DNA from: Bacteroidia bacterium
Lineage (GTDB): Bacteria; Bacteroidota; Bacteroidia; B-17B0; Aurantibacillaceae
NCBI GenBank assembly: GCA_026415195.1
Contig: JAOAHO010000020.1
Span: forward strand, 1 to 44,212
Reading direction: 5' to 3'
Length of the DNA stretch: 44,212 nucleotides
Shown: piece after piece, positions 25,428 to 32,928 of the stretch
How positions within the stretch are numbered: the stretch's first letter is position 1
Layout of the letters: each line of letters starts with the position of its first letter
Position numbers and translations under genes: made by a program
Notes under the pieces: model-generated
Told to the model about the DNA's origin: nothing
Database searches by the model: none
What the model saw: the letters and a program-made list of their open reading frames with translations, nothing else

Positions 25428-26432
25428 TTAACACGCAAATAATTGTTTAATTCCATTCAACAAAATGTCAAATTCTCCGAAATTAAGGGTTTGTTGGCCG
25501 TCGGACATGGCTTTTTCGGGTTGGGGATGAATTTCCACAATAATCCCGTCGGCACCGGCGGCCAATGCTGCCATGCCAATCTGTGGTACCAGTTTTCTGA
25601 TGCCGATACCATGGGATGGATCCCCAAATACGGGCAAATGGCTTTTATCTTTTAAAATGGCAATGGCATTCACATCAAAACAGTTCCGATAGGCATTTTC
25701 AAAACTGCGTATTCCTCTTTCACATAAAATAATATCCGGGTTGCCAGCAGAATAAATATATTCCGCAGAATAAAGCAATTCATCAATGCTTCCCGAAATT
25801 CCTCTTTTTAGTAATACCGGCTTACCGGCTTTGCCCAATGCATCCAGCAGGTTGAAATTCTGCGAATTTCGTGCCCCCACCTGAAACACATCCACATACG
25901 GCAGCATTTCGTCAATTTGTTTTCTTTCCATAACTTCCGTGACAATCTTGATTCCGTAAGAAGAAGCCGTTTTATGAAACATTTTTAAACCTTCGATGCC
26001 AAGGCCCCTGAAGCTGTACGGAGAACTTCTGGGTTTGAAAATGCCGCCGCGCATTAATCGAATCTGGCGGCTTTTTAAAAAACGACAAACATTTTCCACC
26101 TGTTCTTCGCTCTCAACAGAACACGGGCCTGCAATGATTTTCTCTCCTTTTTCGCCTCCTATTTCTACTCCGTCACCAAGGCGTATGATGGTGTTCTCCA
26201 CTCTCCATTTATTTGAAACCAACGGATAAGGATCGGGAACAAAATGTACATCCGAAACCCCTTCCAAACTTCCGATTGCGCGGATATCAATAGTGTCCTT
26301 ATGCTCCACTACCCAAATAACTTTTTGCTTGACCAATACTTCTGTGTAGCGGCAATGCATACGGGAAATCTTTTCCGAAATGAATTGCTTTTGTTCAGGA
26401 GAAATTTGATTATCAATTTGAACCAGGATCAT
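25428..26432 (-). CDS. aroF: 3-deoxy-7-phosphoheptulonate (DAHP) synthase
   Basis: This 334-residue enzyme condenses phosphoenolpyruvate and erythrose 4-phosphate, the first step of aromatic amino acid synthesis. The N-terminal ~75 residues form the ferredoxin-like regulatory domain seen in the Thermotoga maritima type of enzyme, and the length is nearly the same. The catalytic barrel shows AGPCSVES, RGGIFKPRSSPYSFRGLG, KRG and FGDPSHGIG. Metal and substrate residues (Cys of GPCS, the Lys of FKPRSS, His of DPSHG) are in place. It is the last gene of the trp operon and overlaps trpA by 20 bases, so it should share the tryptophan attenuator. In the T. maritima enzyme the extra domain gives feedback inhibition by Tyr or Phe. 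Confidence 0.95.
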   Translation of the reverse strand: MILVQIDNQISPEQKQFISEKISRMHCRYTEVLVKQKVIWVVEHKDTIDIRAIGSLEGVSDVHFVPDPYPLVSNKWRVENTIIRLGDGVEIGGEKGEKIIAGPCSVESEEQVENVCRFLKSRQIRLMRGGIFKPRSSPYSFRGLGIEGLKMFHKTASSYGIKIVTEVMERKQIDEMLPYVDVFQVGARNSQNFNLLDALGKAGKPVLLKRGISGSIDELLYSAEYIYSAGNPDIILCERGIRSFENAYRNCFDVNAIAILKDKSHLPVFGDPSHGIGIRKLVPQIGMAALAAGADGIIVEIHPQPEKAMSDGQQTLNFGEFDILLNGIKQLFAC

Positions 26433-27195
26433 ATCGAAATTGGTTTATAAACTTTTTTATTGAGGTCGAATGTGTTCCAAACTCCATGATATGCTTTAAA
26501 AAAGCAGAACCCACAATGGCGCCTTCGGCATACCTGCATGCCAGGTTATATTGTTCTCCGGTTTGAATACCAAACCCGACGAACTTCGGAATCCCGGGAA
26601 AAAATTCCCTGACTTTCTGAAAATATTTTTTTTGTTTTTCAAAATTGACGGAACTTCCCGTTATGCCGTGATCGGAGGTAATATAAACAAAACCGGTTGT
26701 ATGTTGGCGTATGATTTCCATTCTCTCGGGCTTCGTGGAAGGAGAAGTAAGGAAAACGGAGAGCAAACCGGCTTCGTTCATGGGAGCGCTGAAATACCGT
26801 TCATAGAAGTCGAAAGGGAGGTCGGGAATGATAAGGGCATCAATTTCACATTCACGGCACCTGTCAATGAATTTTTCAATTCCCATCTGTAACACGGGGT
26901 TCAGATATCCCATAAGTACTTTCGGGATAGCCAGATGGCGGGCATCGCGCAGTTGGCTGAACAGAAGTTCCAGCGTCATGCCGTTTCGTAAAGATGCTTT
27001 ATGGCATTCCTGAATTACCGGCCCGTCGGCTAAAGGGTCGGAATAGGGAAATCCTATTTCCGCAAAATCAACTCCCGATTCCTGCAATCCTTCCAGTATC
27101 CGAACTGTATCCGACAGGCTGGGGTACCCCGCTGTAAAATATACCGATAATCGTTTTTTGGTTTTATCCTTAAATAATGCTTTCAGTTTGTTCAT
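26413..27195 (-). CDS. trpA: Tryptophan synthase alpha subunit
   Basis: This 260-residue TIM-barrel subunit cleaves indole-3-glycerol phosphate to indole and glyceraldehyde 3-phosphate. The catalytic acids are Glu46 and Asp57 in AEIGFPYSDPLADGPVIQ. The phosphate-binding parts TSDHGITGSS (loop 6 region), FGIQTGEQ and EGAIVGSAFLK are present. The start overlaps the end of trpB by 26 bases and the end overlaps aroF by 20, so all three are probably translationally coupled. Confidence 0.97.
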   Translation of the reverse strand: MNKLKALFKDKTKKRLSVYFTAGYPSLSDTVRILEGLQESGVDFAEIGFPYSDPLADGPVIQECHKASLRNGMTLELLFSQLRDARHLAIPKVLMGYLNPVLQMGIEKFIDRCRECEIDALIIPDLPFDFYERYFSAPMNEAGLLSVFLTSPSTKPERMEIIRQHTTGFVYITSDHGITGSSVNFEKQKKYFQKVREFFPGIPKFVGFGIQTGEQYNLACRYAEGAIVGSAFLKHIMEFGTHSTSIKKFINQFRYDPGSN

Positions 27196-28378
27196 ATCCC
27201 AGTAGGTGTTTATAATTCTGATAGGCGTGCATGTCTTTATCTCCCCTGCCGGAAAGGTTTACGATTACCAAATCGCCCTTACGGAAATCCATTTTATTAA
27301 TCGCTGCCAAAGCATGTGCCGACTCAAGGGCGGGAATTATTCCCTCGGTTCGGCAAAGCATAAACGCTGCCCTTAGGGCTTCCTCATCCTCGATGGACAA
27401 TACCATGCAACGCTTTTCTTCAAACAAAAAACTGTGTACGGGCCCAACCCCCGGGTAATCGAGCCCTGCCGATACCGAATGTGGCTCAATTACTTGCCCG
27501 TCGTCGTCCTGAAGCAAATAGCTCAGGGAACCATGCAATATCCCGGGCTTGCCCACGGAAAGGGACGCGGCAGTTTGCCCGGAACGAATGCCCTTACCCG
27601 CGGCTTCCACCGCAACAAGTGCAACGGATGGTTTTCCGATATATTCATAAAATGCTCCAATGGCATTGCTTCCGCCTCCCACGCATGCCACGATGTGTGT
27701 GGGATCATCAATCCCCATTTCGGCCAGTTGTAATTTAATTTCCTTACTGATGACCGATTGAAATTGAGTTACCAAATCGGGATACGGATGCGGCCCCACC
27801 ACGGAACCTATCACATAATGGGTGTTTTCAGGGTCGGATATCCAGGTACGGATGGCATCATTGGTGGCATCTTTCAGGGTCATGCTGCCAGAACACGATG
27901 GAACAACCTTTGCCCCAAGCATTTGCATCCTGAGAACATTCAATTGCTGGCGTTCCATGTCTTTTTGCCCCATAAAAATTTCACACGGCATTTTCAAAAC
28001 CGCACATGCCGAAGCGGTTGCCACTCCGTGTTGCCCTGCACCTGTTTCGGCAATGATTTTTTTCTTGCCCATGAATTTTGCAAGCAACACCTGGCCCAAT
28101 GCATTATTGATTTTATGTGCACCGGTGTGGCAAAGGTCTTCCCGCTTCAAAAAAACGGTACATCCATAACGATCCGACAGGTTTCTGGCATGATACAAAG
28201 GTGTGGGCCTGCCGGCAAAATGTTTCAGATAAAATTCATATTCCCTGCGGAAAGCATCCGAAGAAATAATCTCCTCATAAACTTCATTTAATGCCCGAAT
28301 ATTTTCATAGAGCATTTCTGGAACAAAAGCACCTCCGAACTTTTTTCCGTAATATCCGTTTTTATCAGGCCTGATCAT
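27170..28378 (-). CDS. trpB: Tryptophan synthase beta subunit
   Basis: This 402-residue PLP enzyme joins indole and serine to make tryptophan. The PLP lysine is Lys89 in HTGAHKINNALGQ. The phosphate-binding loop VGGGSNAIGAF, the ETGAGQHGVATA segment and the C-terminal SGRGDKDM are all intact. It is of the TrpB1 type. The frame extends 22 codons upstream, but the ATG at 28376-28378 starts at the conserved NGYYGKKFGGAFVPE region and overlaps the trpF stop as ATGA, so it is taken as the start. Confidence 0.97.
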   Translation of the reverse strand: MIRPDKNGYYGKKFGGAFVPEMLYENIRALNEVYEEIISSDAFRREYEFYLKHFAGRPTPLYHARNLSDRYGCTVFLKREDLCHTGAHKINNALGQVLLAKFMGKKKIIAETGAGQHGVATASACAVLKMPCEIFMGQKDMERQQLNVLRMQMLGAKVVPSCSGSMTLKDATNDAIRTWISDPENTHYVIGSVVGPHPYPDLVTQFQSVISKEIKLQLAEMGIDDPTHIVACVGGGSNAIGAFYEYIGKPSVALVAVEAAGKGIRSGQTAASLSVGKPGILHGSLSYLLQDDDGQVIEPHSVSAGLDYPGVGPVHSFLFEEKRCMVLSIEDEEALRAAFMLCRTEGIIPALESAHALAAINKMDFRKGDLVIVNLSGRGDKDMHAYQNYKHLLGYEQTESII

Positions 28379-28998
28379 GTTTTTAGATTTAATAAATGAT
28401 TTTTTAAAAGTTTTATATTTTTTATTCCCGGACTGAGTTCCCACCGGCTGTTCAGATCGACCCCGAATAGTTGCGGGTGCCCTATCTTAAAGGCATCAGC
28501 CAGATTTTCGGGCCCTATGCCTCCGGAAAGAAAAAACGGAACCGTGCCGCGATAATATGAAAGTAGTTTCCAGTCGAATGTTTTGCCCGTACCTCCGAAG
28601 GATTGATCTTTCTTATCGAAAAGAAAATAATCGCAAAAAGAATGATACCGGAGTGTGGCATCAAAATCTTTTTTTGTTTCAATTCCGAAAGCTTTAATTA
28701 CTATTTTCCCTAACAATTTTATTTTTTCACATAAAGATGAGGGTTCATGGCCGTGAAATTGCACGGCATCCAGCCCGAATCTATTGACAGTATCTGTCAG
28801 ATAACCCGGCTCAGGATTAACAAAAACGCCGGTTTTTAAAATTCCTGCCTTCAATGAAGGAATAAATTCTCCGCGGAAAAACCTCTTTGATTTTTCATAA
28901 AAAATAAAGCCGCAATAATCCGGAGAAAGGTTTTGAATTTCCGAAAGTTGTTCGGTATTCGTTATACCGCATATTTTTATTTTTAATTTTAAAGGCAT
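28375..28998 (-). CDS. trpF: Phosphoribosylanthranilate isomerase
   Basis: This 207-residue TIM-barrel enzyme converts phosphoribosylanthranilate to the carboxyphenylamino-deoxyribulose phosphate used by TrpC. The family opening KIKICGITNTEQ contains the catalytic Cys. The segments AVQFHGHEPS, FLFDKK and FFLSGGIGPENL, ending in GVDLNSRWELSPGIK, match the family. It is a separate protein, not fused to TrpC as in E. coli. It overlaps trpC by 10 bases and trpB by 4. Confidence 0.95.
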   Translation of the reverse strand: MPLKLKIKICGITNTEQLSEIQNLSPDYCGFIFYEKSKRFFRGEFIPSLKAGILKTGVFVNPEPGYLTDTVNRFGLDAVQFHGHEPSSLCEKIKLLGKIVIKAFGIETKKDFDATLRYHSFCDYFLFDKKDQSFGGTGKTFDWKLLSYYRGTVPFFLSGGIGPENLADAFKIGHPQLFGVDLNSRWELSPGIKNIKLLKNHLLNLKT

Positions 28999-29810
28999 GG
29001 AATTGGATTATTGATTAATTGACATGCTTCATCTATCAACTCGCTGCAGGTAATTCCCGGCCGTGCCTTACTCATAAAGTATTCCCCGATTAAAAAACCA
29101 CTGAAGCCGCATTTTCTTAGTTTTACCAGCGTCGGGGCATCTTTAATACCGCTTTCGGCAATTTTAAATTTTTCGGGCGGTAGTAACTTGCACAAGTGTT
29201 CACTTTTTGCAAAGGAAATGGTCTGACTCTTTAAATTTCTGTGGTTAATGCCCGCAAGGTCATATTCATCGAAGTTTTCACACTTTCTGATATCTTCTTC
29301 GTCATGGAATTCCATCAACACTTCCATGCCCAGGGAACGGGCCAAAGATGTAAATGTTTTAATGCGGTTCAAATCGAGGATGGAGGCGATAAGCAAAATC
29401 ACATCTGCCCCCTTCGACTTTGCTTCAATAATCTGAAATTCATCCACAATAAAATCCTTACACAAAATGGGACAATAATGCCATGCACGGGCTTTACTAA
29501 TATCATCCGGCATTGCCCCGAAGAATTTTTCATCATTTAATACCGACAGGGCAGCGGCACCTGCACGCATATATTCCAGTGTAATCTCTTCCACCAATGC
29601 AAATGGCCGGATGTCTCCAACAGACGGGGATTTTCTTTTAAACTCCGCAATGATTGAAAATTGGTCATAAAACTTCCGTATGTATTTTTTCAGCGACACA
29701 CAGGGAGTGGAAAAATATACCGACTGCTCAAAATACCGATTGGTAAATACCGATTTTTTGTATTCCACTTCCTTTTTTTTGTTTTGGAGTATTTCATTAA
29801 GAATGCTCAT
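28989..29810 (-). CDS. trpC: Indole-3-glycerol phosphate synthase
   Basis: This 273-residue enzyme closes the indole ring. It begins with the usual MSILNEILQNKKKEVEYKK helix. The catalytic Lys is in IIAEFKRKSPSVGDI, followed by LCKDFIVDEFQI with the second Lys, and LAGINHRNLKSQTI, IAESGIKDA and GFLIGEYFM. It is monofunctional. The start overlaps trpD by 14 bases and the end overlaps trpF by 10. Confidence 0.96.
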   Translation of the reverse strand: MSILNEILQNKKKEVEYKKSVFTNRYFEQSVYFSTPCVSLKKYIRKFYDQFSIIAEFKRKSPSVGDIRPFALVEEITLEYMRAGAAALSVLNDEKFFGAMPDDISKARAWHYCPILCKDFIVDEFQIIEAKSKGADVILLIASILDLNRIKTFTSLARSLGMEVLMEFHDEEDIRKCENFDEYDLAGINHRNLKSQTISFAKSEHLCKLLPPEKFKIAESGIKDAPTLVKLRKCGFSGFLIGEYFMSKARPGITCSELIDEACQLINNPIPCL

Positions 29811-30798
29811 AGGTTATTCGTTTTAATTTCTCAAAACATTCCAATGCTTTTAAATTAAACAATGAATCCTGTGCAATGCCAACGGCTTTTTCGAATGTGC
29901 ATTTTTTAAACAATCTTACCGCTAAAGCAGCATTCGTTACAATAACCTCATTTTGCGGCTTAGTGCCCTGCCCTTTCAGGATTTTGAGAAAAATTTCCGC
30001 AGATTCTTCTTTGGTCTTTCCCCCTTTTATTTCATTTTCATTCAAATAGGTTAACCCCAAATCAAGGGGTGAAATCAGGCCTTCCTCCCGGTTTGTGAAA
30101 AACTTGAAATCGCAGGTAAGCGAAATTTCATCATGGCCATCCAATGAATGATATACATAATACTCTACGGGTTCTTCCTCAAAAAGAAAATGATACATGC
30201 GGGCCAATCCGAGTGAATAAACTCCATGAAAGCGGTATTTAGGCATGGCCGGATTAATCAAGGGGCCCAGCATATTGAAAAATGTTTTTACTTTCAATTC
30301 TTTCCTGACATTTGCCACTGATTTTAATGCAGGATGAAACAAAGGAGCATGCATAAAACATATCCCGCATTCCTCCAACTGCATCCTTAGCAAATAGGAT
30401 TCGGAAGAAAATTTAATTCCCATGCACTCCAGTACGGTAGAAGATCCCGAAACGGATGTAACACTATAATTTCCGTGCTTGGCCACGGGAATACCTGCTC
30501 CGGCCAGAACAAAAGCCGTCAGGGTGGATATGTTAAAGGTGTTTTTGGAGTCCCCACCCGTTCCGCAAACGTCCATCACCTCCTTAGTACCCAGGTCCAC
30601 CTTAACACATTTTTCCATCAACACATTGCGGAATGCCTTCAGTTCGTCGCATGTAATTCCGCGCATGATAAACCCCGTCAGAAGGGCCGAAAGTTGGGCA
30701 GGAGGAAATTTTCGCTCCGCAATATCGGCCATTAAATTTTCCGCATCCCGGCTGTCCAACGTCTGATAGTCCAGTAATATTTCCAGCGCATTTTTCAT
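29797..30798 (-). CDS. trpD: Anthranilate phosphoribosyltransferase
   Basis: This 333-residue enzyme adds the phosphoribosyl group to anthranilate. The PRPP-binding motif DVCGTGGDSKNTFNIST and the segments VAKHGNYSVTSVSGSS and HAPLFHPALKSVANVRKEL are typical. The frame extends 14 codons upstream, but the ATG at 30796-30798 begins the conserved N-terminal helix (MKNALEILLDYQTLDSRDAE) and overlaps the trpG stop as ATGA. That overlap, repeated at trpF/trpB, decides the start. It is not fused to TrpG. Confidence 0.96.
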   Translation of the reverse strand: MKNALEILLDYQTLDSRDAENLMADIAERKFPPAQLSALLTGFIMRGITCDELKAFRNVLMEKCVKVDLGTKEVMDVCGTGGDSKNTFNISTLTAFVLAGAGIPVAKHGNYSVTSVSGSSTVLECMGIKFSSESYLLRMQLEECGICFMHAPLFHPALKSVANVRKELKVKTFFNMLGPLINPAMPKYRFHGVYSLGLARMYHFLFEEEPVEYYVYHSLDGHDEISLTCDFKFFTNREEGLISPLDLGLTYLNENEIKGGKTKEESAEIFLKILKGQGTKPQNEVIVTNAALAVRLFKKCTFEKAVGIAQDSLFNLKALECFEKLKRITYEHS

Positions 30799-31361
30799 GG
30801 CATGTGATTTATCCAGTTTTTGATGATTTGTAATCCGCATTCCGTAAGGATTGATTCGGGATGAAACTGAATTCCACGTACATCATACTTTTTATGCCTG
30901 ACAGACATGATAAGGCCGTCTTTGTTTTCGGCAATAATTTCAAGTTCATCTGAGGAATCATCAATTACCCATGAATGATAATGCCCCACACGTATTCCGG
31001 ACGGACAATTTTTAAAAAGATAATCGTCTGCCAAAAAACGAACGGGGGTGCTGATGCCATGCAGAGGTTCATTGAGGTTTATCATCCTTGCACCATAGGT
31101 AATACCGATAGCTTGATGTCCGAGGCAAATTCCCAGAATGCTTTTATGGCTTCCGTATTCCCTGATTACCTCCAGGGTTTTTCCTGCTTCCGAAGGAATT
31201 CCTGGGCCTGGTGAAATAAGTATTTTATCGAATTCACCCGCTTCGTCCAAAGAAAAAGCATCATTTCTTTTCACCACTACATCCTCACACCCTGCTTTTT
31301 CCAAGAGGTGTACAAGGTTATAGGTAAAAGAATCGTAATTATCAATGACAAATACTTTCAT
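30795..31361 (-). CDS. trpG: Anthranilate synthase component II (glutamine amidotransferase)
   Basis: This 188-residue class I amidotransferase supplies ammonia to TrpE. The oxyanion motif SPGPGIP, the nucleophile Cys79 in ILGICLGHQAIG, and the His167/Glu169 pair in GIQFHPES complete the triad. The same fold serves 4-amino-4-deoxychorismate synthase (PabA), so it may be shared with folate synthesis, but its position directly behind trpE makes TrpG the primary role. It overlaps trpE by 20 bases and trpD by 4. Confidence 0.95.
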   Translation of the reverse strand: MKVFVIDNYDSFTYNLVHLLEKAGCEDVVVKRNDAFSLDEAGEFDKILISPGPGIPSEAGKTLEVIREYGSHKSILGICLGHQAIGITYGARMINLNEPLHGISTPVRFLADDYLFKNCPSGIRVGHYHSWVIDDSSDELEIIAENKDGLIMSVRHKKYDVRGIQFHPESILTECGLQIIKNWINHMP

Positions 31362-32754
31362 ATGATTGTGTATTCGCTTCTTTCAGTGCAAGGCGCAGCG
31401 CCGCTATTTTATTATTCACTTCCTGCAACTCGCTTAAATCATCGGAATAGTGAACGATTCCGCATCCTGCCTGATAACGCAGAATATTGTTTTTCGATAT
31501 CAATGACCGTATGCAAATGGCATGATTTAAATTTCCGTCAAATCCAACCAACCCAACGGCTCCTCCATATAATCCGCGGGGAACTTTTTCCAGTTCGCTG
31601 ATAAGTTCCATGGCACGATATTTGGGTGCCCCGGTCAAGGTGCCGGCCGGAAAACTATCCATAAAAACACGGAAAGCATCCTGGTTTGTTTTTAAATCGG
31701 CTGCAATTTCCGATACCAAATGAATGACATGTGAATAGGCCTCAACATTCTTCAATGCTTTTATCTCCACATTTTTTGCGCTTTTTGAAAGATCGTTTCT
31801 TGTCAGGTCAACCAACATATGATGTTCGGCATTTTCCTTTTCATCATACAAAAGTTTTTCTGACAATGCCTCAACCGATTCACCGCTTTTTCTTTTATAC
31901 GTGCCCGCAATGGGATAAATACGGGCTTTCACTTTGTCAATCCTGATTTGCGATTCGGGCGATGAACCCATGACTCTGAAATTTCCGAAATCGAAATAAA
32001 ACAGATAAGGTGAGGGGTTGATGGAACGAAGTTTTCTGTAAACCTGAAAATCATCTCCTTTAAAATGCTGATAGAACCTTCGCGAAAGAACCAACTGAAA
32101 AACATCCCCTCTCTTTATATGCTGCTTTACATGCCTGATGCATGAAAGAAATTCCTTATCCGTATAATCTGAATACTCATTTCCAATAAGTTGAAAAGCA
32201 TGCGTGCTGTTAATGTATTTATTTAAATAAGAAATGATTTCAGGGCTCCGGATTTTTTCATTTTCCCCTGCATATTCCACCAAATACAGTGTATGGTGAT
32301 AATGATCGAATGCCAACATAAATTTAAAAAAATAGTATTGTGCCAAAGGGAAATCGGGATCCGTGTTAACAGAAATTTTTTCCAAAAGCGTAATTGCATC
32401 GTAAGAAAAATATCCGAAAATGCCTTCGGAGATATTATCCTGAATGTTTGATTTATCCACTTGAATGTGTTCCAGAAAAAAATTAATGGCTAAAGAGGGA
32501 GAAAAGCTCTCACCTGTTTTAAAAGTAAATTGCTCTATGTCTGTTTTAATATGATAATAATCCTTAATAAATTTTATGTTTGCCAAAGGATGAAACAATA
32601 TATACGAAACCGCATTATCGGCTTTGTTGTAATGCGAACTTTCCAAAAGAAAAGCCAAAGGATAACGATCTCGGATTTTCAAATAGCATTCCACCGGTCC
32701 CAGCAAATCGGCGGATATTTTGGTGATGTATGTATGATATCTTTTTGTTTTCAT
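31342..32754 (-). CDS. trpE: Anthranilate synthase component I
   Basis: This 470-residue chorismate-utilising enzyme makes anthranilate. The N-terminal LLESS motif (about residues 36-40) corresponds to the tryptophan-binding site of feedback-sensitive enzymes. The catalytic domain shows GDVFQLVLSRRF, INPSPYLFYFDFGNF, GSSPES, PIAGTYKRK, DLTRNDL, FPAGTLTGAPKYRAM and YQAGCGIVHYSD. A longer frame starts at a GTG (32793), but that GTG lies inside the attenuator hairpin and adds only TTT-rich codons. The ATG at 32752-32754, giving MKTKRYHTYITKIS, is the real start and follows the terminator. Confidence 0.96.
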   Translation of the reverse strand: MKTKRYHTYITKISADLLGPVECYLKIRDRYPLAFLLESSHYNKADNAVSYILFHPLANIKFIKDYYHIKTDIEQFTFKTGESFSPSLAINFFLEHIQVDKSNIQDNISEGIFGYFSYDAITLLEKISVNTDPDFPLAQYYFFKFMLAFDHYHHTLYLVEYAGENEKIRSPEIISYLNKYINSTHAFQLIGNEYSDYTDKEFLSCIRHVKQHIKRGDVFQLVLSRRFYQHFKGDDFQVYRKLRSINPSPYLFYFDFGNFRVMGSSPESQIRIDKVKARIYPIAGTYKRKSGESVEALSEKLLYDEKENAEHHMLVDLTRNDLSKSAKNVEIKALKNVEAYSHVIHLVSEIAADLKTNQDAFRVFMDSFPAGTLTGAPKYRAMELISELEKVPRGLYGGAVGLVGFDGNLNHAICIRSLISKNNILRYQAGCGIVHYSDDLSELQEVNNKIAALRLALKEANTQSYESICH

Positions 32755-32771: not shown

Positions 32772-32803
32772 AAAAAAACCTGCCGCATTTCACAGCAGGT
32801 TTT
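32772..32803 (-). terminator. Intrinsic terminator (attenuator, segments 3:4) before trpE
   Basis: On the minus strand AAAACCTGC (32795-32803) pairs with GCAGGTTTT (32775-32783) in a 9-bp stem with an 11-base loop. The run of seven T residues (32772-32778) overlaps and follows the 3' arm. It lies between the leader-peptide stop and the trpE start, 17 bases before the trpE ATG, so termination here would silence the whole operon. Confidence 0.85.
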
Positions 32804-32885
32804 GTATCGTTAAAAGTATTAGAATGGATTATTGCTTAACGAGGTACAATGCACCTGCTGTGGCGTAGAATTTACGCCACCACCA
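32772..32885 (-). promoter_or_regulatory. trp attenuator: mutually exclusive RNA hairpins
   Basis: Four segments can be drawn in the leader RNA. Segment 1 (32873-32880, GTGGCGTA, overlapping the third Trp codon) pairs perfectly over 8 bp with TACGCCAC (32860-32867). Segment 2, CACAGCAGGT (32853-32862), pairs perfectly over 10 bp with segment 3, ACCTGCTGTG (32791-32800): this is the antiterminator. Segment 3 alternatively forms the terminator stem with segment 4 (32775-32783). A ribosome stalled at the Trp codons (32877-32885) would cover segment 1, free segment 2 and so prevent termination. This is the architecture established for E. coli trp; its working here is inferred. Confidence 0.88.
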
Positions 32886-32912
32886 AGCGTTAAGCAATGA
32901 AAAAAGTTTCAT
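32829..32912 (-). CDS. trpL: trp operon leader peptide with three tandem Trp codons
   Basis: This is a 27-codon frame with the order MKLFSLLNA, then three consecutive TGG (Trp) codons, then RKFYATAGALYLVKQ and TAA. Tryptophan is normally about one percent of codons, so three in a row in a short frame in front of trpE is strong evidence for a control peptide. A second in-frame ATG (32925-32927) would add five residues (MFAGI), but it lies inside the probable -7 promoter box, so the ATG at 32910-32912 is preferred. Codons 18-22 (Ala-Thr-Ala-Gly-Ala) encode the antiterminator segment. The peptide itself probably has no further function. Confidence 0.88.
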   Translation of the reverse strand: MKLFSLLNAWWWRKFYATAGALYLVKQ

Positions 32913-32920
32913 TATGCCTG

Positions 32921-32928
32921 CAAACATA
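32921..32928 (-). promoter_or_regulatory. -7 promoter box of the trp operon
   Basis: TATGTTTG on the minus strand is an exact match to TAnnTTTG. A TTTG lies 17 bases upstream (end of the TTTTTTG run), a little closer than the usual 19. Transcription would begin about 6-8 bases downstream, that is 0-3 bases before the ATG at 32912, leaving almost no 5' leader in front of the leader peptide. Confidence 0.5.

Follow-up and report, generated by a model that had tools for sequence, protein, structure and literature searches.

A putative ribosome-mediated attenuator with a predicted near-leaderless leader ORF upstream of the trp operon of a Bacteroidia bacterium

In other phyla, trp genes are governed by TRAP, TrpR and T-box-type systems. 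Attenuators of the Bacteroidetes/Chlorobi are reportedly mentioned in the abstract of Vitreschak et al. from 2004. A cis-regulatory motif of Bacteroidetes, Bacteroid-trp (RF01692), was described by Weinberg et al. (2010; PMC2864571), and two later reports concern F. psychrophilum, namely a 2019 paper in which Bacteroid-trp was likened to the E. coli leader and described as conserved upstream of the trp operon, and a 2021 transcriptome map with strong clues for leader-peptide attenuation upstream of amino-acid operons (PMC9723704, PMC6414381). Since RF01692 and the F. psychrophilum reports precede the present analysis, a leader-peptide trp attenuator is not new for Bacteroidota. Experimental proof of leader-peptide trp attenuation in this phylum was not found in the available literature, in line with the initial annotation of the locus, which was aware of no experimentally studied example. 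The RF01692 model describes a Trp leader peptide in Bacteroidota and an outer helix, termed P0 here, which is formed by the codons preceding the Trp run and sequence of the stop region and surrounds a 1:2 hairpin, but a terminator hairpin is not among its pairings. The enteric attenuator (E. coli trpL) combines Trp codons with the stems 1:2, 2:3 and 3:4 and a U-tract upstream of trpE, and in its geometry a ribosome at the stop codon masks segment 2. In S. meliloti, the trpL leader peptide is encoded on a leaderless attenuator RNA (rnTrpL) and the operon is not subject to transcriptional repression.

The locus analysed here lies on the minus strand of a 44,212-nucleotide stretch of DNA (hereafter the window), where positions 32772–32928 comprise a complete leader region directly upstream of trpEGDCFBA and a DAHP synthase gene (Table 1). 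The short leader frame with three consecutive Trp codons that had been annotated is present, with its ATG at 32912, the stop codon at 32831–32829 and the Trp codons as codons 10–12 (32885–32877). The operon for tryptophan biosynthesis is thereby preceded by a short ORF, predicted to be translated, in which Trp codons follow one another, the ATG of trpE (32754) being located a short distance 3′ of the terminator T-run.

Table 1. Features of the trp leader and operon in the window
Feature	Position	Strand	Basis or remark
-7 promoter box TATGTTTG	32921..32928	-	Bacteroidota sigma-A consensus TAnnTTTG, 8 nt before leader ATG
Leader peptide ORF MKLFSLLNAWWWRKFYATAGALYLVKQ, 27 codons + TAA	32829..32912	-	Sequence; WW/WWW in relatives
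Outer helix P0, 11 bp	32831..32898	-	ATTGCTTAACG 32898-32888 with CGTTAAGCAAT 32841-32831; encloses Trp codons and 1:2
1:2 hairpin	32860..32880	-	GTGGCGTA 32880-32873 with TACGCCAC 32867-32860, 8 bp; equivalent stem covaries in relatives
Segment 2, CACAGCAGGT	32853..32862	-	Perfect 10-bp complement of segment 3; p ~0.003
Alternative pairing, P0 3′ arm 32842-32835 with linker 32814-32807, 8 bp	32807..32842	-	Predicted by constrained folding; would extend the antiterminator with a ribosome over the Trp codons
Segment 3, ACCTGCTGTG	32791..32800	-	Common to 2:3 and 3:4
3:4 intrinsic terminator hairpin and T-run	32772..32803	-	32803-32792 with 32786-32775; T-run to 32772
trpE, first structural gene	31342..32754	-	NCBIfam TIGR00564, E 5e-117, under its curated cut-off
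trpG, trpD, trpC, trpF, trpB, trpA and DAHP synthase gene	25428..31361	-	NCBIfam matches

The 1:2 hairpin overlaps the control codons and has the 8 bp attributed to it, but its 5′ end is the final base of the second Trp codon, and not in the third, as had been annotated. The 2:3 antiterminator was correctly described as a perfect 10-bp helix (10/10 pairs, 32862–32853 with 32800–32791), its complementarity having a p-value of ~0.003 against shuffled sequences, and is mutually exclusive with the 3:4 terminator and its U-tract. The competing 3:4 hairpin upstream of trpE (32803–32775) likewise has the 9 bp and the seven T residues assigned to it, and can be extended to 12 bp with two G-U pairs. 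As a whole, the 144-nt leader folds with a z-score of -6.1, and none of 200 shuffled versions was equally stable. The initial annotation had equated this arrangement exactly with the enteric trp leader, which is true of the participation of segments 2 and 3 in competing structures, but not of the distant stop codon and the additional outer helix; both the 11-bp P0 and the position of the stop codon well past segment 2 had been overlooked. Compared with E. coli trpL, the window leader has three Trp codons, lacks a Shine-Dalgarno (SD) sequence, is near-leaderless by prediction and contains P0, and TrpR is lacking in the genome. The stop codon lies ~24 nt 3′ of segment 2, too far for a ribosome positioned there to mask this segment, unlike in E. 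coli, and 1:2 and the outer helix would therefore need to re-form behind the ribosome. In the family relatives, the leader stop adjoins segment 2 in the family alignment.

The covariance models of Rfam place the locus close to, but outside, the described families. RF00513 (Trp_leader, gathering cut-off 41 bits) gave no match on the window; elsewhere in the family, one Bacteroidota trp leader (L015:2907–3011, minus strand) is above this cut-off. RF01692 (gathering cut-off 49 bits) does not match the window copy, and its one hit in the genome (23.9 bits) is an unrelated site; over 22 family genomes it lands on the family leaders with at best 45 of the 49 bits, so that none passes, and in the phylum only 3 of 20 loci pass. 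The window nevertheless contains P0 and 1:2 around a Trp leader ORF of a Bacteroidota genome, as in the RF01692 structure. Judged by its sequence, the leader is built, and would work, like Bacteroid-trp, yet it falls below the scoring threshold and is not an Rfam-defined member. The F. psychrophilum leaders (PMC9723704, PMC6414381) share with it the phylum and the location at amino-acid operons, with RNA-level evidence for structured 5′ regions, but belong to another species (Flavobacteriaceae), and the mechanism was inferred there.

P0 has its counterpart in the RF01692 consensus, which consists of this outer helix and the 1:2 hairpin, so that the element itself is already known. In the window it aligns with its equivalent in the family covariance model R1. 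Pairing between the pre-Trp codons and the stop region exceeded shuffled sequences in 22 of 86 leaders at p<0.05, 13 of them at p<0.01, compared with 2 of 85 and none, respectively, for an upstream control region. In the family alignment, the P0 columns are 70% paired, with one slid version scoring about alike. Support for P0 thus rests on the per-sequence shuffle test, the alignment to model R1 and the RF01692 consensus. Constrained folding further predicts that the 3′ arm of P0 can pair with the linker instead, which would lengthen the antiterminator.

A search with TrpE covered 61 genomes; the 21 family loci retained from it have an unambiguous trpE orthologue and upstream DNA that could be read. 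All of these carry an ATG-started ORF with WW or WWW upstream of trpE, typically MKKQFVNNSWWWFSTNVVNS, and the leader is followed by a terminator in every case. Relatives retaining trpE but losing the Trp codons or the pairing had been named as the observation that would speak against attenuation; this was examined, and the 21 loci uniformly keep both the WW/WWW run and the terminator. A search for same-genus relatives found none, and the covariation figures refer to 20 of the 21 same-family relatives, with the window left out of the alignment. Stem 1:2 has seven cells altered on both sides, a value matched by 2 of 500 shuffles, and stem 3:4 has three pairs altered on both sides (1 of 500 shuffles). 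In stem 2:3, 98% of cells are paired and the variation consists of one-sided G-U changes only; the stem is therefore conserved rather than proven through covariation. Of the covariation anticipated in three stems, compensatory changes were accordingly seen in 1:2 and 3:4, but not in 2:3. Complementarity between segments 2 and 3 was above that of shuffles (p<0.05) in 20 of 22 same-family loci, including the window. When a covariance model was built from the 20 relatives without the window, the window leader was its top match there (34.0 bits, E = 2.8e-5), the runner-up in the window scoring 18.4 bits. In a genome-wide search with R1, in which 150 of 2938 first-look candidates were scored, the window site was not among the matches listed, probably because of this restriction to 150 candidates, and the best match among those scored, on contig 59, resembles a plain gene-end terminator.

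Taken together, the leader ORF, the alternative structures, their conservation and partial covariation, and the absence of a known alternative regulator make it highly probable that the region controls the trpEGDCFBA-DAHP synthase operon by ribosome-mediated transcription attenuation, with termination depending on tryptophan. Control by ribosome stalling, as the initial annotation had proposed, is thereby supported by the family conservation, by covariation in 1:2 and 3:4 and by the lack of alternative regulators. According to this mechanism, RNA polymerase would start ~3–4 nt before the leader AUG and ribosomes would load onto the near-leaderless, SD-free end of the RNA. When charged tRNA-Trp is scarce, the ribosome would stall on Trp codons 10–12 and cover segment 1 together with the 5′ arm of P0, leaving segment 2 free to form 2:3, so that transcription would continue into trpE. 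When tryptophan is plentiful, the ribosome would pass, 1:2 would close behind it with P0 acting as a lock, and segment 3 would pair with segment 4, stopping transcription near 32772. In constrained folds with a ribosome on Trp10, 11 or 12, 2:3 is predicted as soon as segment 3 is out and again for the full-length RNA, and with a ribosome on codon 20, at the stop codon or absent, the full-length RNA is predicted to adopt 3:4. The minimum-energy fold without a ribosome is still 2:3 when segment 3 has just emerged, so that termination of an untranslated leader would rely on 1:2 and P0 folding first.

The predicted near-leaderless start codon had been overlooked in the initial annotation. In F. 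psychrophilum the -7 box spans -12 to -5, and 4–5 nt separate the box from the transcription start site (TSS) in F. johnsoniae; because of this spacing, the TSS of the window leader is predicted at ~32915–32916, which would leave a 5′UTR of only ~3–4 nt. In 50 of 79 loci, the end of a TAnnTTTG box lies 5–10 nt upstream of the leader ATG; over the ATGs of this DNA as a whole, the proportion is 0.8%. Among longer ORFs (≥150 aa) that have such a box no more than 60 nt away, only 2 of 18 share this spacing, a crude control in which internal and spurious ORFs are counted. Published maps indicate that leaderless mRNAs are rare in Bacteroidota, with 5.5% leaderless mRNAs in the transcriptome map of F. 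psychrophilum and a 5′UTR of <10 nt in ~3.7% of cases in that of B. thetaiotaomicron. No report of near-leaderless starts at Bacteroidota attenuators was found in a literature of which the coverage was incomplete. It is conceivable, albeit somewhat less than probable, that near-leaderless SD-free leaders, with the AUG 2–6 nt from the TSS, drive amino-acid attenuation in Bacteroidota, and that the 3′ arm of P0 serves as a switch, which either locks 1:2 once the ribosome has left or lengthens the antiterminator upon a stall at the Trp codons. If true, the near-leaderless start and the P0 switch would tune ribosome loading in bacteria in which leaderless mRNAs are otherwise rare. Termination at such a leader would also release a near-leaderless small mRNA, as described in S. 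meliloti, so that the leader RNA or peptide might act in trans in addition to attenuating in cis, like rnTrpL and the peptide peTrpL. S. meliloti trpL differs from the window leader in that it is alphaproteobacterial, its RNA begins exactly at the ATG and trans functions have been reported; the window peptide is poorly conserved besides Trp, and an additional role of this kind is unlikely.

The cis-acting attenuator was further considered in a phylum sample of 80 named Bacteroidota loci, 57 of which have a Trp-run leader upstream of trpE. In 14 other loci trpB comes first, and in 12 of these the leader precedes trpB, all in Bacteroidales (L039, L056, L067, L072, L075, L078, L082, L083, L087, L091, L101 and L109). 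In total, 69 of the 80 trp operons have a WW/WWW leader before the first trp gene, and for at least one of the remaining loci the contig is too short for a decision. Among the 79 WW leaders upstream of trpE (22 same-family loci including the window, and the 57 others), a terminator was found 3′ of the leader stop codon in 78, compared with 3.8% of dinucleotide shuffles. In other families the 2:3 excess is weak (11 of 56 loci at p<0.05).

Two Trp-run leader ORFs are arranged in series upstream of trpE in L057, L070, L084, L100, L102 and L106, and covariance-model matches point to tandem trp leaders also in L105 and L107, mostly in Prolixibacteraceae; tandem leaders that were examined directly have their own terminator after each leader. 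In four of these loci the peptide of the first leader is nearly invariant, with IWLPWWGLL in L057 and L070, IWLWWWGLL in L102 and IWLPWWGLF in L100. Retention of IWLPWWGLL in the first of two Prolixibacteraceae leaders would be in keeping with a nascent peptide that responds to free tryptophan from within the exit tunnel, as in TnaC-like arrest, instead of a ribosome that stalls for want of charged tRNA-Trp. However, its IWL codons lie in a base-paired stem, CAATATGGCT/AGCCATATTG, with AGCCATATTG located downstream, so that this DNA is constrained by pairing, which may account for part of the conservation, and IWLPWWGLL was dropped as a candidate arrest peptide. Conservation of the leader peptides across families does not extend past the Trp run either, and on both counts TnaC-like sensing is very unlikely. 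Another tryptophan sensor (TRAP, TrpR, a T-box or a riboswitch), with the short ORF being incidental, would conform to the control of trp genes in other phyla, but TrpBP, Trp_repressor and T-box searches gave no match in the genome, which is 93% complete, an Rfam scan of the window returned nothing at gathering level, and the Trp codons are kept throughout the family, so that this possibility is hardly credible. Equally implausible is a fixed terminator that damps the operon irrespective of tryptophan, with the ORF present by chance, since the strong terminator in the predicted fold is accompanied by 2:3 complementarity above chance and, in the phylum sample, by the leader's regular position before trpE or trpB.

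Elsewhere in the same genome, a hisG leader is found on the reverse strand of contig 49 (L121), with an ATG at ~2185, a peptide containing His codons, MNSMQHCHKAFRHCPGSDV, and TAATTTTG 9 nt before the ATG. Here CCGGGCTC is complementary to GAGCCCGG, forming a candidate antiterminator, and an intrinsic terminator precedes hisG. The sequence suggests a second, comparable attenuator of the same layout, which is counted in favour of attenuation at trp. A leuA_bact gene (TIGR00973) was not matched in the genome, with 14 of 14 control genomes positive; either the species may be unable to make leucine or the genome may be incomplete.

Some aspects are fresher than others, namely the extent across the phylum, the predicted near-leaderless starts of the leader ORFs, the tandem attenuators and the putative P0 switch, and the overall novelty is modest. 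The locus offers a clean example for the coupling of transcription and translation in bacteria that dispense with Shine-Dalgarno sequences. Throughout Bacteroidota, tryptophan synthesis is probably controlled by leader-peptide attenuation as a rule, far beyond the reach of the current Rfam model.
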